A stretch of DNA of 33,211 nt. It comes from a virus. Positions 10,554 through 33,211 of the stretch are shown here, in pieces. The notes beneath the pieces were generated by a model. The model ran no database searches. It saw only the letters and a program-made list of their open reading frames with translations, and was not told the origin of the DNA. Position 1 is the first letter of the stretch; the number at the start of each line of letters is the position of its first letter. Location of the stretch: positions 1 through 33,211 of the IMG/VR virus record IMGVR_UViG_3300005289_000072, one strand, 5' to 3'. A program made the translations under genes and the position numbers.

Positions 10554-11317
10554 AAATTCTAGTAATCCCTGACACTCAGCGCCGCCCAGACAATGTTCAA
10601 ATGAACACGCCTCTGGACATCGCGATCGGCAATATGATCGTGGCGGAGCAGCCTGATGTAGTCGTCCATATCGGCGACCACTTCGACATGCCTTCGCTAT
10701 CGACATACGATATGCCGAAGAACAATCGGAGGACGATCGATGGACGGGAAGTTGCAGCTGACGTGGCGGCCGGACGCGAGTCTATGGGACGGATTCTTGC
10801 GCCTCTACGAGATCTCCAAGAGCGCCAGAGGAACAGTAAACATCGAGTGTACCGACCCCGAATGGTCTTTACTCTTGGAAACCATGAGGAAAGAATTCTC
10901 CGGTTTCCCGAGCTACGAGGCTTGGTTGGTATCCCAGATCTGTTTGCTGGCACCCCATGGGAGGTTTACGATTATCTTGAACCCGTTACCTTCGGAGGAG
11001 TCGAGTTCGTGCACTACGCAGCGAACGCTCTCTCGGGCAGACCTTATGGCGGGTCGGCTGAGTACCGTCTGAACAAGACCAAGATGTCCGTAGTGCAGGG
11101 CCATGAGCAGACCTTCAAGTATGCCATGGAGTTCCTGAACAATGGACGTGCTCTGAGCTTCTTAGTGGGTGGCTCCTGCTACCTGCATGACGAGCCGTAC
11201 AAAGGCCCGCAAGGCAACAACCACTTCCGTGGCTCCTTCATCCTTCACGATGTGAAAGACGGGATCTACGATCTGGAGCAAGTGTCTTGCCGTCGTATGA
11301 TGGAGGAATACCTGTGA
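10550..11317 (+). CDS. Calcineurin-like metallophosphoesterase
   Basis: A 255-aa protein with metallophosphoesterase blocks: IPDTQ near the N terminus, HIGDHFDMPSLSTYD, TLGNHEERI, EFVHYA and VQGHEQTF. Motif I has D-T-Q in place of the usual D-x-H, and the last block is GHEQ rather than GHxH, so metal binding is a variant. Possible substrates include nucleotides, RNA ends or proteins. It sits directly after endonuclease I (ATGA overlap), which hints at nucleic-acid metabolism. The fold assignment is solid; the substrate is open. Confidence 0.85.
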   Translation: MKILVIPDTQRRPDNVQMNTPLDIAIGNMIVAEQPDVVVHIGDHFDMPSLSTYDMPKNNRRTIDGREVAADVAAGRESMGRILAPLRDLQERQRNSKHRVYRPRMVFTLGNHEERILRFPELRGLVGIPDLFAGTPWEVYDYLEPVTFGGVEFVHYAANALSGRPYGGSAEYRLNKTKMSVVQGHEQTFKYAMEFLNNGRALSFLVGGSCYLHDEPYKGPQGNNHFRGSFILHDVKDGIYDLEQVSCRRMMEEYL

Positions 11318-11553
11318 GCATGCTGCAACTGAAGTGCCTGTTCTGTATGGGCTCTTGGGGTCTCCACACTCAGAAGTCTATGGGTGAACACTCCAAGAAA
11401 GTCTGGAAGTGGCTGGTGCAGATGAATGAAGGCGGTGCGCCATTCAACTGCAACATCGGTCTGTACACCAAGGAAGAGATGGAGCGCTGGCCATGCAAGA
11501 ACCGGCTCTTTGTCTATGTCTACCTGTTCGGTTATCGGTGGTATACGAAATAA
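11314..11553 (+). CDS. 79-aa hypothetical protein, last gene of the rightward block
   Basis: It starts at GTG 11314, overlapping the previous stop (GTGA) with TGGAGGA seven bases upstream. ATG 11320 is the alternative, at wider spacing. CLFC near the N terminus and two later cysteines (FNCN, WPCKN) could bind metal, and the C terminus is aromatic (FVYVYLFGYRWY). The stop at 11551-11553 is followed one base later by a strong promoter. Confidence 0.65.
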   Translation: MSMLQLKCLFCMGSWGLHTQKSMGEHSKKVWKWLVQMNEGGAPFNCNIGLYTKEEMERWPCKNRLFVYVYLFGYRWYTK

Positions 11554-11554
11554 C

Positions 11555-11583
11555 TTGACAGGTTTTTCACCGGGCGGTATACT
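11555..11583 (+). promoter_or_regulatory. Near-consensus sigma70 promoter in the convergent junction
   Basis: TTGACA (11555-11560), 17-bp spacer, TATACT (11578-11583): eleven of twelve consensus bases at ideal spacing. It fires rightward, yet the only features to its right on that strand are a hairpin terminator and the antisense of late genes. Transcription should start near 11590. Confidence 0.8.
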
Positions 11584-11589
11584 GACCTT

Positions 11590-11698
11590 ATAGACCCTTT
11601 ATACCCCCGGTGATTATTACTTAAGGTGTAGATACAAAGAAACCCCAGTCAGGGGCCTTAGGATAACCTAGGGTCTTTACTGGGGTTTTCTTGTTTTT
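11590..11698 (+). ncRNA. Candidate short phage RNA from the convergent junction
   Basis: Predicted from the promoter at 11555-11583 and the terminator ending near 11698, giving an RNA of about 105-110 nt with no plausible ORF. AGACCCT (11592-11598) can pair with AGGGTCT (11670-11676) inside the terminator, competing with its inner stem, so two alternative folds exist. Part of its 5' region resembles sequence in the right control region (32622-32661). Existence and function are inferred. Confidence 0.5.
11637..11698. terminator. Bidirectional rho-independent terminator between convergent operons
   Basis: AAACCCCAGT (11640-11649) pairs with ACTGGGGTTT (11679-11688). An inner stem, CCTTAGG (11656-11662) with CCTAGGG (11667-11673), closes on an ATAA loop. 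On the + strand the hairpin runs into TTTTCTTGTTTTT. On the - strand it runs into TTTCTTTG. It therefore ends both the replication and the late transcripts. Confidence 0.85.
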
Positions 11699-11852: not shown

Positions 11853-14800
11853 TTATGGAAGATCGAAATATTCCTTCACTGCTTCCTTGCCGGGCTTCAG
11901 TTGGTTAATTACTGGAACTTGCTTGTACAGGAACTGCCAAATGTATCCACTCGTTGGATCATCCTCAAAGTGAGATACAGTGTTATACCCTGCTTGGACA
12001 CCTTCCTTAATTAGACCAGCAGCAGGCCCAAGGTTGGCAGACACTGGATCAGTGCCATACCGTGGAGCATTGAACATGTTTAGAACGTATTGCATCTGCA
12101 TAGGAACAACTGTACTGTTGAGTACATCCATCAGACGTTGTGCCTCAGTCCTTTGATCATCTGGATCTTGCATCCCCGCTTTAGTCCACTGTTTCAGTTC
12201 ATCCTGTAGGTATCCAATCCCCACCATAGACCCTAAGATAAATGCCAAACCAATTGTACCTGCCGCAGCACCTGTGTAAGAACCTTGATAACTTGGGCGC
12301 ATCTTACGAATCAGTTGTGGGAGGATAATGTTGGTATAGGCCGTAGGGTATCGCTTTAATTGAGCCAAGAGTTGCATGTGACCATTGTTCATCCAGAGGG
12401 GAAGATCCGCTGAGTTAGGCTCAAGGATCGTCTGACTGGTGAACCTACGGATAGCAAGTAGCTTGGCTTCCCTCGCAGCAACAACCTCTGATTGATTACT
12501 TGGTGAGTAATGCGCCATAGCTTCAGCCTGAGAGTTAATCTCCAGACCCATTGTACGCAACTGACGTTGGTACTGGGCGCCTTTAGCACTCGTAAGGTCA
12601 ATCCCTAGGGATAACTTATAGATTGCATCGTTGTAAATCCTTTCCCCCGTCTTAGCAGCATAAATCCTCTGCACATGAGTCAGAAGGGTCAGTCCGTTAG
12701 CAAGGAAGAAGTACTTCATAGCTGTTGCAGAACCACGGTTGAACATGGTGCTACCTAAGCGCTCAGCTAGTACGTTCTGAGTACTTGCAAGGTCAATCCC
12801 TGTATCAGCAGCCATCTTAGCCCAGTCGCTTCTAGGAGAACCCTTGAAGAGGGTTTGAGTAAGATTCTTGGCTACCTGAGCCATCGTTGGGATTACAGAA
12901 GCAATGGCATCCACCACGTTGCCACGAATAGCAGGAGTAGTGAACTCTACAAGAGACGACAGGGTTGCCAAAGGAAGAGACTTAACAGTCAAGAATGCAG
13001 AGAGGGCACTCTGGGTATTCCTAATGGAATCACTTTGAATACGACCATACATCCCATTGTAGGCGTCGAGGATACCATACATCTGATCCACTTCAGCCTT
13101 ACTAACGCTACGTCCAGCTTTTTGAGCCTGAGCCACAGCAGTAGCAATCTGCTTGTTTGCCTTTTCTCCTGTTTCCCCAAAGCGATCCGTGAAAGCGATC
13201 CTGTGGGCAGCCCCATGGAAGTAATCATGTACAGCCTGAATGCGTTGGCTAGGAGATTCCTCTTTAGCGTACTTATTCATGATGGACTGAGGTACTTCGT
13301 TAAAGGCACGGGAGAACTCAAGGTTGGAGAACTTAGGTGGAACTGTACCTTGAGCAAACTTCCCACGGAGAGTCTCTGGGTTGTCTGCCTTACGTTGACG
13401 CTTCATGGCCTCCCATTTACCAGTCTGTGGGTTCTGTTGAACCAGACGAGTAACCTGAGGGGCAGCATTGGTGCGAGGAGTATTGATAGTCTCAATGTAG
13501 TTGTCTACGGCAGCCTTAGGGTCTTTGACATATGGTGCAATCTCTGCCTCGAATTGAGGACGGTTAGCCTCAATCTTAGCTAGGTCTGGACGGAAAGGCA
13601 TGTAGCCATCAATGAGACCTACCTTGAGACCGCTCTTAACAGCGTCTGCGGGTGCTTCATCAAGGACTTTACGAAGGCGTAGGGCTTCTGGGGAAGTAAC
13701 CTGAGCGCGTGGTAGAGAGGCTTCATCAATAATGGATGCCTTCTCTGCGTCGCTCTTACCGTGGAAGATGTCAGATACCTCTGAGTTCCACTTACCAGAG
13801 CGAAGCTCGTAGTCTTCAAATACAGTCTTACCTGTGGCCTTCTCACCGGTAGCATCTGGACGAAACTCACGGATGAACTTCTCAGCCTCAGGAGCAACAC
13901 GAGCTAATGGTTCCAGAGGCGCTGTTGCTTCACGCCCACCCATTTGCCACATCTTCGTAAGGAATCCACCTTCTTCAGTAGGGCCATTTGCAAACTTAGC
14001 AGCAGGTGCAGCAGTACCAGCAGCGTGAGCGTTGGACATTACAGTGTCGAGGATCTCAGATCCACCACGAGCAATACCACCACCTACGGCACCACCAATA
14101 GCAGCATTGATGGAGCGCTCTAGGATACTATCAGCACTGGCCTCATGGTCAGTCACCTTACCAGCCAAGTAGGCCTGAGCACCCTCTGTGGCCCCGCTAA
14201 TGGCACCTTCTGTAGCAGCACCCTTACCAACACCAATCATAGCTTGCTTGATACCGTCCAAAGCCATGACCTTAGGGATACCTGCGGCTACAGCATTCTG
14301 GTAGATGATCTCAGGGGCTACGTGTTTTAGCAAAGGAGAAACAAGAGACTTAACCCCCAAAGTATCAAGCACGCCAGCTCCAGTACCAAAGGCAACAGAT
14401 GTCCATGGTGCTTGTTTGTTAGGATCGAGAGCTTTAATCTCATTCTGCATTGCACCTGTGTTGATACCAAAGGAGGCCAAGAAGCCACCTACAATAGGTC
14501 CTGCGATACGACCGGGAATACCAAATGCTGCACCAGCCTTCTCACCTGCAAGTGCACCACCACCCATTGCAGCCATTGTAGTACCTAAAGCCGGAGCCAT
14601 AGAGCCTACGGTATTGGTGAGGTATTGACTTACAGAGGACAGGTCATCAAGGTTGACATCCTTGTAGGAGTCTACTTCTGGTTGACCGTACTGAGCGGCT
14701 TGTTCAAGTTGTTCCTCACGGATCTCCTTACCGGAGTCCTGAAGATACTGTGACCCTGTGATTTCACCCAAGGCCTCAACGGTACCACCGAAGTTTGCCT

Positions 14801-15059
14801 GCATGGTATCAACACCACGACCTACAGCAGAACTAAAAGAATTAGGGTCAGCGACAGCCTGTGGGGTTTCTTGTGAGGTGCTCTCTTCTGCTACCTCCCC
14901 ACGGGCTGCGCTGAGATTGGAAACTGCTGGAGCAGCCTCAGGGGCTGCCACAGGTTCTACTTGAGCTGGAGTCCCTTGGCCCCCATTAAGGATTGCAAGG
15001 ATTTCAGGACGTACTCGACCAAAAGGCGAATCGACCAAGCCATCATTAAGGGTTGCCAT
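11853..15059 (-). CDS. Large internal/ejection virion protein (1068 aa)
   Basis: By size and position this is the large internal core or DNA-ejection protein, the counterpart of T7 gp16 or the big ejection protein of other podoviruses. The N-terminal 90 residues are Ala/Pro/Glu-rich. Residues about 145-340 contain Gly/Ala-rich hydrophobic stretches (PALGTTMAAMGGGALAG; IAGPIVGGFLASFG). A further hydrophobic segment lies near residue 950 (GTIGLAFILGSMVGIGYL). I see no lysozyme or transglycosylase motif. Such proteins leave the head at infection and form a channel across the envelope. The ribosome-binding site CGAGGAGAG is strong. A TACTRTGMC motif sits opposite at 14746-14754. The frame stays open after its TAA, to 11697. 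Confidence 0.75.
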   Translation of the reverse strand: MATLNDGLVDSPFGRVRPEILAILNGGQGTPAQVEPVAAPEAAPAVSNLSAARGEVAEESTSQETPQAVADPNSFSSAVGRGVDTMQANFGGTVEALGEITGSQYLQDSGKEIREEQLEQAAQYGQPEVDSYKDVNLDDLSSVSQYLTNTVGSMAPALGTTMAAMGGGALAGEKAGAAFGIPGRIAGPIVGGFLASFGINTGAMQNEIKALDPNKQAPWTSVAFGTGAGVLDTLGVKSLVSPLLKHVAPEIIYQNAVAAGIPKVMALDGIKQAMIGVGKGAATEGAISGATEGAQAYLAGKVTDHEASADSILERSINAAIGGAVGGGIARGGSEILDTVMSNAHAAGTAAPAAKFANGPTEEGGFLTKMWQMGGREATAPLEPLARVAPEAEKFIREFRPDATGEKATGKTVFEDYELRSGKWNSEVSDIFHGKSDAEKASIIDEASLPRAQVTSPEALRLRKVLDEAPADAVKSGLKVGLIDGYMPFRPDLAKIEANRPQFEAEIAPYVKDPKAAVDNYIETINTPRTNAAPQVTRLVQQNPQTGKWEAMKRQRKADNPETLRGKFAQGTVPPKFSNLEFSRAFNEVPQSIMNKYAKEESPSQRIQAVHDYFHGAAHRIAFTDRFGETGEKANKQIATAVAQAQKAGRSVSKAEVDQMYGILDAYNGMYGRIQSDSIRNTQSALSAFLTVKSLPLATLSSLVEFTTPAIRGNVVDAIASVIPTMAQVAKNLTQTLFKGSPRSDWAKMAADTGIDLASTQNVLAERLGSTMFNRGSATAMKYFFLANGLTLLTHVQRIYAAKTGERIYNDAIYKLSLGIDLTSAKGAQYQRQLRTMGLEINSQAEAMAHYSPSNQSEVVAAREAKLLAIRRFTSQTILEPNSADLPLWMNNGHMQLLAQLKRYPTAYTNIILPQLIRKMRPSYQGSYTGAAAGTIGLAFILGSMVGIGYLQDELKQWTKAGMQDPDDQRTEAQRLMDVLNSTVVPMQMQYVLNMFNAPRYGTDPVSANLGPAAGLIKEGVQAGYNTVSHFEDDPTSGYIWQFLYKQVPVINQLKPGKEAVKEYFDLP
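14746..14754 (+). other. TACTRTGMC motif (possible single-strand interruption site)
   Basis: TACTGTGAC on the + strand, which here is the non-coding (non-sense) strand of the 1068-aa ejection protein gene. The motif therefore keeps the same DNA strand although the genes are reversed. Confidence 0.45.
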
Positions 15060-25064: not shown

Positions 25065-26015
25065 TTACGATGCGATTACGTCGCGGATCAGAGCACCAGA
25101 TTCCTCGTTGTTCACGCGGAAGGTATACTCAGCCAGCATTTCTCGTTTCTCGCTGTCACCAGTTTTAGCCAGTGGGAACTGTTGGAACGACCGCAGGTAG
25201 CACAGGGAGTGCATCTTAGGATCGAACATAAACAGTGCATCAGCTTTGAAGAACCGGTTAGCTACAATCTGGTACTTACCGAAGTCACACTCGTAGACGT
25301 CCACTGCCTGAGCAATGGTCGAATCCGAAGCGTCAAGTTGGATCTGGGTAGCACGACCCTTGAAGTTCTTACTGATGTGTTTCTTCAGCGAGGAACTAGT
25401 GTGGATGGTGTTAGCCTGACCACCTTTCTGCCAGATCAACTCGGAGGCATCCAAGATCATCTGCTCGGTGAGTACACGCTGAGTACCAGCAGTACCGGTG
25501 TTCACACCGTTGCCGGTAGGAGCAACACCAGTCGCACCCAAAGAACCATTGGTCTTGTAGTACGAGTAGATGTTACCTGCCTGACCAGCTACAGAGCTGG
25601 AACGAGCGATCTTAGCCAAAGGAGTACCAACCAGCATGTACTCCATGTCGGTCTTAATCTCTTTAGCTTTCTTAGCCAACTGATAGGCCAGTTCCGACTT
25701 ACGGCCAGCCTTGTCGACAGCCTCAGTAGTACCGGTTACTTGCAGGGTTTCAGTCACGATCTGGCAAATGTTATCTGCCATGGTGGTGAAAGTTGCAGCG
25801 TTCATTACAGCGTCGTCACCTTCGATCTTGGTGTTGAGCGCTGGAGCACGCAGTGCATCGGTTTGCCATTGGTGAGTAATCGCCTTAGCAGTACCCTTGC
25901 CGATGGCAGTCATAAACGGGGTATCATAAGGGCGGATGTTGTAGATGACGTCAATCAAGTCCTCACGCTGACCTTTGATCAGCACGGTACTGACAGCGTT
26001 TACTGGAGTAGCCAT
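25065..26015 (-). CDS. Major capsid protein, SU10/DUF5309-like
   Basis: A 316-aa protein. The N-terminal pattern KGQREDLIDVIYNIRPYDTPF followed by TAIGKG, then HQWQTDAL, is the signature of the DUF5309/SU10 capsid family with an HK97 fold (the first run spans residues about 14-34). NRFFKADALFMFDP and the long E-loop-like segment fit. It lies directly after the scaffold gene, has an AAGGAA ribosome-binding site, and is followed by a strong terminator, all typical of a highly expressed capsid gene. Confidence 0.88.
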   Translation of the reverse strand: MATPVNAVSTVLIKGQREDLIDVIYNIRPYDTPFMTAIGKGTAKAITHQWQTDALRAPALNTKIEGDDAVMNAATFTTMADNICQIVTETLQVTGTTEAVDKAGRKSELAYQLAKKAKEIKTDMEYMLVGTPLAKIARSSSVAGQAGNIYSYYKTNGSLGATGVAPTGNGVNTGTAGTQRVLTEQMILDASELIWQKGGQANTIHTSSSLKKHISKNFKGRATQIQLDASDSTIAQAVDVYECDFGKYQIVANRFFKADALFMFDPKMHSLCYLRSFQQFPLAKTGDSEKREMLAEYTFRVNNEESGALIRDVIAS

Positions 26016-32308: not shown

Positions 32309-32319
32309 GACGCCTCCTC

Positions 32320-32333
32320 GGCTGAAATCAGCC
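32320..32333. promoter_or_regulatory. Palindrome in the 5' leader of the late operon
   Basis: GGCTGAAATCAGCC, a 6-bp inverted repeat with two central bases. It lies between the late promoter at 32343-32371 and the GAGGAGG ribosome-binding site. It could be an operator or a small leader hairpin that protects the transcript end. Confidence 0.45.
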
Positions 32334-32342
32334 TATAGTTCT

Positions 32343-32371
32343 ATTATCTCAGGGATAGCCCTTAGGGTCAA
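32343..32371 (-). promoter_or_regulatory. Late-operon sigma70 promoter, proximal
   Basis: On the - strand: TTGACC (32371-32366), 17-bp spacer, GATAAT (32348-32343). Five of six bases match in each box. Initiation would be near 32336, about 28 nt before the GTG of the small terminase gene. Confidence 0.72.
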
Positions 32372-32421
32372 CCTATGATTGAAGAGCTTGCTGGAAAAGC
32401 TGTCTACGACGGCCTCCGCTC

Positions 32422-32440
32422 CTATAGGTCTACCCTATAG
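32422..32440. promoter_or_regulatory. Operator-like palindrome CTATAGG-N5-CCTATAG
   Basis: A 19-bp inverted repeat with perfect 7-bp arms. It lies downstream of the strongest late promoter, inside its transcribed leader. A shorter relative, TAGGG-TCTA-CCCTA, occurs at 32545-32558, and CCCTATAGGG occurs at 32582-32591. This suggests sites for one DNA-binding protein. Confidence 0.5.
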
Positions 32441-32444
32441 AGTA

Positions 32445-32474
32445 TTTATAGAATAGGTTTTAAGAAGAAGTAAA
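32445..32474 (-). promoter_or_regulatory. Weak late-promoter candidate
   Basis: On the - strand: TTTACT (32474-32469), 18-bp spacer, TATAAA (32450-32445). It matches four and five of six bases and lies between the two better promoters; it may be inactive. Confidence 0.3.
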
Positions 32475-32488
32475 GACCCTATAAGACC

Positions 32489-32518
32489 ATTATACCCATG
32501 CCAGAAAGACCCTGTCAA
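32489..32518 (-). promoter_or_regulatory. Perfect-box sigma70 promoter for the late operon, distal
   Basis: On the - strand: TTGACA (32518-32513), 18-bp spacer, TATAAT (32494-32489). Both boxes are exact consensus. Initiation near 32482 would give a leader of about 170 nt that crosses the operator-like palindrome and the proximal promoter before the small terminase gene. Confidence 0.82.
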
Positions 32519-32544
32519 CCCTAAGGTAAGCTTTAGATACTCCT

Positions 32545-32591
32545 TAGGGTCTACCCTATTGAAGTCCTTCAGGGTCCCCCGCCCTATAGGG
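32545..32591. promoter_or_regulatory. Further CCCTA/TAGGG palindromes upstream of the late promoters
   Basis: TAGGG-TCTA-CCCTA at 32545-32558 and the perfect decamer palindrome CCCTATAGGG at 32582-32591 lie just upstream of the distal promoter. They share arms and centre with the palindrome at 32422-32440, so repeated binding of one protein is plausible. Confidence 0.4.
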
Positions 32592-33054
32592 GAGTACCTC
32601 AGGGTCGTCTAAAGGGAAGGCCTAGACCCCTGAAGTTGAAAATAGCCCCCGGTGTGTATTAGGAATATCCGCTTGGGACACTCAATGAGTTAAGTGGGGG
32701 TGGCCCCTAAGGATTGACCTCCGAGTCAACCATAGGGTAAACATCAGGTACAACCCCCTCCCCCATAGAAAAAACTTATGGGGTTATACCTATAGATACC
32801 TTAGGGGATATCACTGGGCATGTATACAGTGCTACCTGTAGTAACCCTTATGCAATCCTCATGCCTACCTTGAGTGCTACTCTACTGGGCTACAACACAC
32901 TACATAGGTGCTACTCAAGGGTGATACCCGCTGATACGCTCTAGGATGCGTTAGGAGACGCTTTGCTCTGTACCCCTAGGCTAACCCCTAGTGATGCGCT
33001 AAAAAGAGCAGGCTTACATTTCTTCAATGATAACAATGACTTAGAGTGTGTGAC

Positions 33055-33066
33055 CTGATCGATCAG
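33055..33066. promoter_or_regulatory. 12-bp perfect palindrome CTGATCGATCAG
   Basis: A perfect dyad in the gene-free region. It could be an operator for a dimeric DNA-binding protein. Two overlapping GATC sites lie inside it (33057-33060 and 33061-33064), so it is also a possible Dam-type methylation target. Confidence 0.4.
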
Positions 33067-33091
33067 TCAGGATAGTGGCATACCATATACC

Positions 33092-33106
33092 TGTAGTAAA
33101 ACTACA
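33092..33106. promoter_or_regulatory. Inverted repeat TGTAGT-AAA-ACTACA
   Basis: A 15-bp sequence with 6-bp perfect arms, 26 bp to the right of the CTGATCGATCAG palindrome. It overlaps the second copy of the direct repeat ACCTGTAGTAA. Possible operator or replication-related site. Confidence 0.4.
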
Positions 33107-33120
33107 TGACCAACGGTAGC

Positions 33121-33149
33121 TTGACGTATGCAATGAATGTGTGTATCAC
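33121..33149 (+). promoter_or_regulatory. Weak rightward promoter candidate
   Basis: TTGACG (33121-33126), 17-bp spacer, TATCAC (33144-33149). The -35 box is good and the -10 box poor. If the genome ends or repeats nearby, it could correspond to an early rightward promoter; otherwise it may be chance. Confidence 0.3.
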
Positions 33150-33152
33150 GCG

Positions 33153-33181
33153 CACCCCCGGTTCGTTAACCAATGGGGGTG
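33153..33181. other. Strong two-part hairpin near the right edge
   Basis: CACCCCC (33153-33159) pairs with GGGGGTG (33175-33181), and an inner GGTT/AACC stem closes a CGTT loop with a three-base AAT bulge. No T-run follows on the + strand, so a classic terminator is unlikely. A TACTRTGMC match begins nine bases after it. Confidence 0.5.
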
Positions 33182-33189
33182 ACCTAAGA

Positions 33190-33198
33190 TACTATGAC
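33190..33198 (+). other. TACTRTGMC motif in the right control region
   Basis: TACTATGAC, preceded by GA as at 1877 and 14746, nine bases after the hairpin at 33153-33181 and close to the window edge. Confidence 0.45.
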
Positions 33199-33211
33199 GG
33201 CGTGTGCATAC

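Follow-up and report, generated by a model that had tools for sequence, protein, structure and literature searches.

The window, which is the whole 33.2-kb virus record analysed here, comes from a phage akin to the LUZ24-like podoviruses of Pseudomonas. Its left third carries rightward genes (primase/helicase, DNA polymerase, exonuclease, endonuclease and metallophosphoesterase) and the remainder carries leftward genes (virion proteins, portal, terminase and lysozyme), with the two blocks converging at 11553/11853 (Table 1). The nearest relatives are Lyrsu01–03, Bjorn and JB8, at approximately 60–65% identity in the metallophosphoesterase just upstream of the junction. Of these, Lyrsu01–03 infect P. 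syringae and Bjorn infects Pseudomonas sp. CT12. The last rightward gene, which has an upstream TTG at 11287 and a TAA stop codon at 11551–11553, gave no PHROG family match, and it was not found in Bjorn, Lyrsu03 or the IMG/VR phage contigs L005 and L098 in a search run without a positive control.

Table 1. Features of the convergent junction and of the late promoter region; positions are in the window unless another genome is named.
Feature	Position	Strand	Details
Last rightward gene	11320..11553	+	77 aa from ATG; ORF list and translation
σ70-type junction promoter, TTGACA-N17-TATACT	11555..11583	+	Sequence match; TTGACA 11555–11560, 17-nt spacer, TATACT 11578–11583; counterparts in Lyrsu03, Bjorn, L005 and L098
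Predicted transcript leader	11590..11633	+	Fold; start inferred at ~11590; alignment to Bjorn gp50 leader
Intrinsic terminator, rightward transcripts	11639..11698	+	23-bp stem 11639–11662/11667–11689, loop 11663–11666, T-rich tail
Same hairpin, terminator for leftward late transcripts	11622..11689	−	Fold; tail TTTCTTTGTATC
Last leftward (late) gene	11853..15059	−	1068-aa virion structural protein homologue, ends at junction
Late promoter, TTGACA-N18-TATAAT	32489..32518	−	12/12; initial transcribed CTTATAG matches junction promoter
Junction promoter, Lyrsu03			TTGACAGGCTTTTTCTGGGACGATATACTGAC; Lyrsu01 and Lyrsu02 identical here
Junction promoter, L098			TTGACAGGCTTTTTCTGGGTTGGTATACTGAC
Junction promoter, Bjorn			TTGACA-N17-TACAAT
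Junction promoter, L005			TTGCCA-N18-TATAAT
Two-promoter late region, window	32518-32489 and 32371-32343	−	
Two-promoter late region, L097	42829 and 42994		
Two-promoter late region, L193	17791 and 17612		
Two-promoter late region, Lyrsu03 (L096)	223 and 399		

The junction opens with a strong promoter match that, as originally predicted, begins one base after the last rightward gene: the gene stops at 11553 and TTGACA starts at 11555. It agrees with the consensus at 11 of 12 positions, is the top promoter match between 3000 and 20000, and has near-consensus hexamers with a spacing inside the 16–18 nt of host σ70 promoters. Matches of at least 11/12 occur twice in the whole window, compared with 0.27 expected from order-1 Markov sequences, and the other is the 12/12 late promoter on the minus strand at 32518. 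Its position predicts a transcript start at approximately 11590. The claim that no ORF separates promoter and terminator also held, as this interval contains not even an ATG.

A long hairpin terminator had been proposed to end approximately 105 nt downstream of the predicted start, and the hairpin at 11639–11689 with its T tract bears this out. Its folding energy is −35.4 kcal/mol on the plus strand and −28.0 kcal/mol on the minus strand; this high stability, together with T tails on both strands, indicates that it would serve both directions. The hairpin sits between the last rightward (early) and the last leftward (late) gene, which fits the convergent-junction terminator of LUZ24-like phages, and judged from its sequence it is the bidirectional terminator already annotated at that junction in LUZ24 and tf. 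The flanking sequence GTAGAYNNAAAGAAACCCC was rejected as a marker of the junction terminator: it occurs in 18 viral contigs, of which all but Bjorn apparently come from unrelated phages and have ordinary terminators, so we regard the flank as generic. Separately, TAGGGTCTTTACT is common to the 3′ arm of the terminator (11671, plus strand) and the leader of the late promoter (32479, minus strand), so that the 3′ end of a late transcript would have a 13-nt complement in that transcript's 5′ leader.

The predicted RNA of approximately 105 nt folds at −47.2 kcal/mol (z = −5.3). Its leader comprises an unpaired 5′ end, AUAGACCC, followed by a hairpin at 11598–11632 (−9.4 kcal/mol, z = −2.1), and includes an SD-like TAAGGTG at 11622–11628 with no start codon after it. 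Both this RNA and the corresponding Lyrsu RNA (z = −3.5) fold better than all of their shuffles, although the terminator dominates these scores. Leader hairpins also fold at the L005 junction (z = −2.9) and in the L005 late leader (z = −2.7), but neither of the two Bjorn leaders folds, and the sequences are too few to claim covariation or a conserved leader hairpin. An Rfam search with the RNA returned nothing above the gathering score, only weak sub-threshold matches. Pairing of its 5′ part in trans with 42 gene starts of the window and the late leader reached a best z of −1.7.

We reject a termination switch that had been suggested for this RNA, in which AGACCCT near the 5′ end pairs with AGGGTCT in the terminator loop to give an alternative fold. 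AGGGTCT lies at 11670–11676, in the 3′ arm of the stem and not in the loop. Forcing the pairing yields −26.1 kcal/mol versus −47.2 kcal/mol for the unconstrained fold, a penalty of 21 kcal/mol, and its probability in the equilibrium ensemble is 0; at nascent lengths, pairing of this type appears transiently at 90 nt only and is replaced by the terminator stem by 95 nt. The word is not kept in relatives, and because it recurs in the non-coding DNA of this phage, where it is common, the pairing is not specific.

Conservation of the promoter in close relatives had been put forward as one of two conditions for testing the original prediction, and the prediction survives it, since a promoter is indeed found at the equivalent junction in Bjorn, Lyrsu01–03, L005 and L098, a promoter-bearing group in which the comparison spans five lineages only. 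No good promoter precedes the junction terminator in LUZ24, PaP3, tf, NV1, UFV-P2, Rembedalsseter, SCYZ1, BroderSalsa or JB8. A blastn search of the window junction against phages gave no match, and a search with the promoter pattern found nothing in genome contigs and only L098 among viral contigs. What follows the promoter differs between members. In Bjorn it is gp50 (69 aa, phrog_11040) and in L005 a 156-aa ORF, each followed by the terminator, whereas the window and Lyrsu have no annotated gene or long ORF in this slot, that of Lyrsu holding a 9-codon reading frame, MDTDIRLNL; the L098 contig ends just before its terminator. The family of gp50 has relatives in Rhizobium and Sinorhizobium phages, which fits the expectation for a mobile accessory gene.

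The window leader, CTTATAGACCCTTTATACCCCCGGTGATTATTACTTAAGGTGTAGATAC, aligns over its full length to the leader of Bjorn gp50, including the SD-like element (score 65, against 41 for the highest of 300 shuffles; z = 10), but lacks a start codon at the position of the gp50 ATG. The junction promoter-leaders of Bjorn and L005 are each the best match to the late promoter in their own genome, with scores of 90 and 54, respectively, against a background of approximately 35. An initial ATAG, mostly within CTTATAG, is common to all six junction and late promoters compared. On the strength of the leader similarity and this common initial sequence, the promoter at the junction appears to have been copied from the late promoter class. 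Late leaders with no gene directly behind them (for example, Bjorn 42829) also contain SD-like AAGG or AGGAG, so the SD-like element of the window is no proof of a gene deletion.

The late promoters themselves have a recurrent arrangement. In the phages examined, a near-perfect TTGACA/TATAAT promoter is followed approximately 150–180 bp downstream by a second one with the −35 element TTGACC and then a CTTAGG- or CTAAGG-type word. The palindrome CCTWAGG occurs five times in the 903-nt late regulatory region of the window (32309–33211); counted on both strands, this gives 10 occurrences versus 0.73 expected, with a maximum of 6 in 1000 Markov sequences. Its enrichment in non-coding DNA is approximately 25-fold in the window and Lyrsu03 and approximately 13-fold in Bjorn. 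Some of the copies, several in number, overlap −35 elements (TTGACCTTAGG, CCTTAGGGTTGACA), and another forms part of the junction terminator's apex, at 11656; the palindrome is possibly the operator of a regulator. Lyrsu03 also has a long non-coding early region (46366–46906, minus strand) with two TTGACA promoters 150 bp apart, apparently structured and unannotated, which is a candidate non-coding RNA region.

The reading that we favour, and to which we give about an even chance of being correct, is that the junction carries the late-type σ70 promoter-leader cassette of a terminal accessory-gene slot that is vacant here. The cassette would mark a slot with which the rightward block ends, immediately ahead of the bidirectional terminator lying between the converging early and late units. 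Relatives have this slot occupied by a single small gene, whose ribosome-binding site lies within the leader, and the window has no gene there. Given an active promoter, the host polymerase would start near 11590 and stop at the terminator approximately 105 nt on, and the product would be a short untranslated RNA consisting mostly of the terminator hairpin. The cassette would be expressed late, its gene would have been lost or never gained, and the RNA would have no essential role of its own. This reading builds on the observed parts and their order and is supported by the recurrence of the slot promoter, which drives genes in Bjorn and L005, by the alignment of the window leader to that of gp50 up to the start-codon position, and by the annotation of the terminator in both directions at the tf and LUZ24 junctions. 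The last pre-junction genes of PaP3 (ORF22–25) differ in time class from ORF26–31 in clustering (PMC4707531), which fits separate control near the junction. Against a vacant slot stands the near-consensus promoter kept without a gene in the window, Lyrsu and probably L098, as a dead slot needs none.

That kept promoter, with no ORF behind it in the window or Lyrsu, is a point for a dedicated phage small RNA (sRNA), the main rival reading and a possible but rather doubtful one, in which an RNA of approximately 100 nt, with a single-stranded 5′ end and the terminator hairpin, acts late in infection on RNAs of the phage or its host. Over the first 41 nt of the RNA, L098 and Lyrsu03 are identical at 39 positions (95%), compared with 80% for the preceding gene and 75% at the third codon positions in the nearby phosphoesterase gene. 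These values are suggestive of selection on the RNA itself between these two phages, although the test was post hoc, on one pair whose divergence is mosaic (100-base windows range from approximately 55 to 100%). No clear relationship links the window leader to the Lyrsu and L098 leaders (z = 2.4 and 3.5), and this difference in type argues against a common RNA kept across the clade. Folding better than every shuffle speaks for an sRNA in both the window and Lyrsu; the dominance of the terminator in those scores, the lack of an Rfam family match and the lack of any gene start in the window whose pairing with the 5′ part exceeds that of shuffles speak against it. There is a precedent in the virulent Pseudomonas phage PAK_P3, which makes two abundant late sRNAs, sRNA1 and sRNA2, that like the window RNA are intergenic and approximately 100 nt long (PMC4933390); they were seen by RNA-seq whereas the window RNA is predicted, and the likeness is one of size and position. 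The original idea of a dedicated RNA stands as regards a strong σ70-type promoter running into a terminator with no ORF, and is weakened by the small gene in the same slot of two relatives. Given the standard terminator and these gene-bearing slots, an empty accessory-gene slot is no less likely than a gene dedicated to an RNA.

A combined view, which we hold to be unlikely, is that in one clade of LUZ24-like phages a late-type promoter site ends the rightward block and yields an untranslated RNA or a small protein depending on the member, with the Lyrsu-type RNA selected and acting late. Still less likely is a guard function, in which rightward initiation opposes late RNA polymerase leaking leftward and thus prevents antisense RNA to the early genes. 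Position and direction fit, and with its late-like initial transcribed sequence the promoter could be on when late transcription arrives; however, the terminator is strong both ways, LUZ24, PaP3, tf, NV1, UFV-P2, SCYZ1 and JB8 have it without such a promoter, and the promoters of Bjorn and L005 each drive a gene. We know of no antiterminator in LUZ24-like phages. Regulated read-through, in which a factor or an alternative fold lets polymerase pass the terminator and transcribe the late tail gene in antisense, is very improbable: the leader shared by the junction and late promoters of Bjorn and L005 (+1 to +45) could bind an antiterminator, and in PAK_P3 structural genes are covered by early antisense RNA (PMC4933390), but the proposed switch is costly and unspecific, as described above, and the read-through into late genes suggested in the original prediction would have to get through a hairpin of −35 kcal/mol and its T tract.

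Whether gene-less promoter–terminator units of virulent phages encode sRNAs or are vacant slots could be tested concretely and cheaply at this junction. Should the RNA prove real and functional, the LUZ24-like group would gain a short RNA, of which, to our knowledge, none has been reported there; the excerpted texts of two papers on LUZ24-like transcription describe no short RNA (PMC3517423, PMC4707531). If the slot is empty, a strong promoter without an ORF would by itself be no evidence of a regulatory RNA.

Among known systems, the junction terminators of LUZ24 (25725–25768), tf (25092–25133) and UFV-P2 (25922–25964) are annotated as acting in both directions and share with the window hairpin their position between converging blocks, a long hairpin and T tracts on both strands. 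The apex is longer in the window, and the three phages, unlike the window, have no promoter annotated or found just upstream. The pR′-tR′ unit of phage lambda, which makes 6S RNA, likewise aims a strong promoter at a nearby terminator, but there the late genes lie beyond the terminator in the same direction and are reached through antitermination by Q, whereas beyond the window terminator a late gene lies in antisense. In phage accessory ‘moron’ units, a gene comes with a promoter and a terminator of its own. The slots of Bjorn and L005 are, like these, single-gene promoter–terminator units, and the window has its own promoter and terminator with no protein gene between; the term ‘moron’ is used in PMC7067206. 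The gp50 unit of Bjorn (Bjornvirus bjorn, MG775259) resembles the window in where its promoter lies, in its leader (z = 10) and in its terminator, and differs in the 69-aa gene that it carries between leader and terminator.
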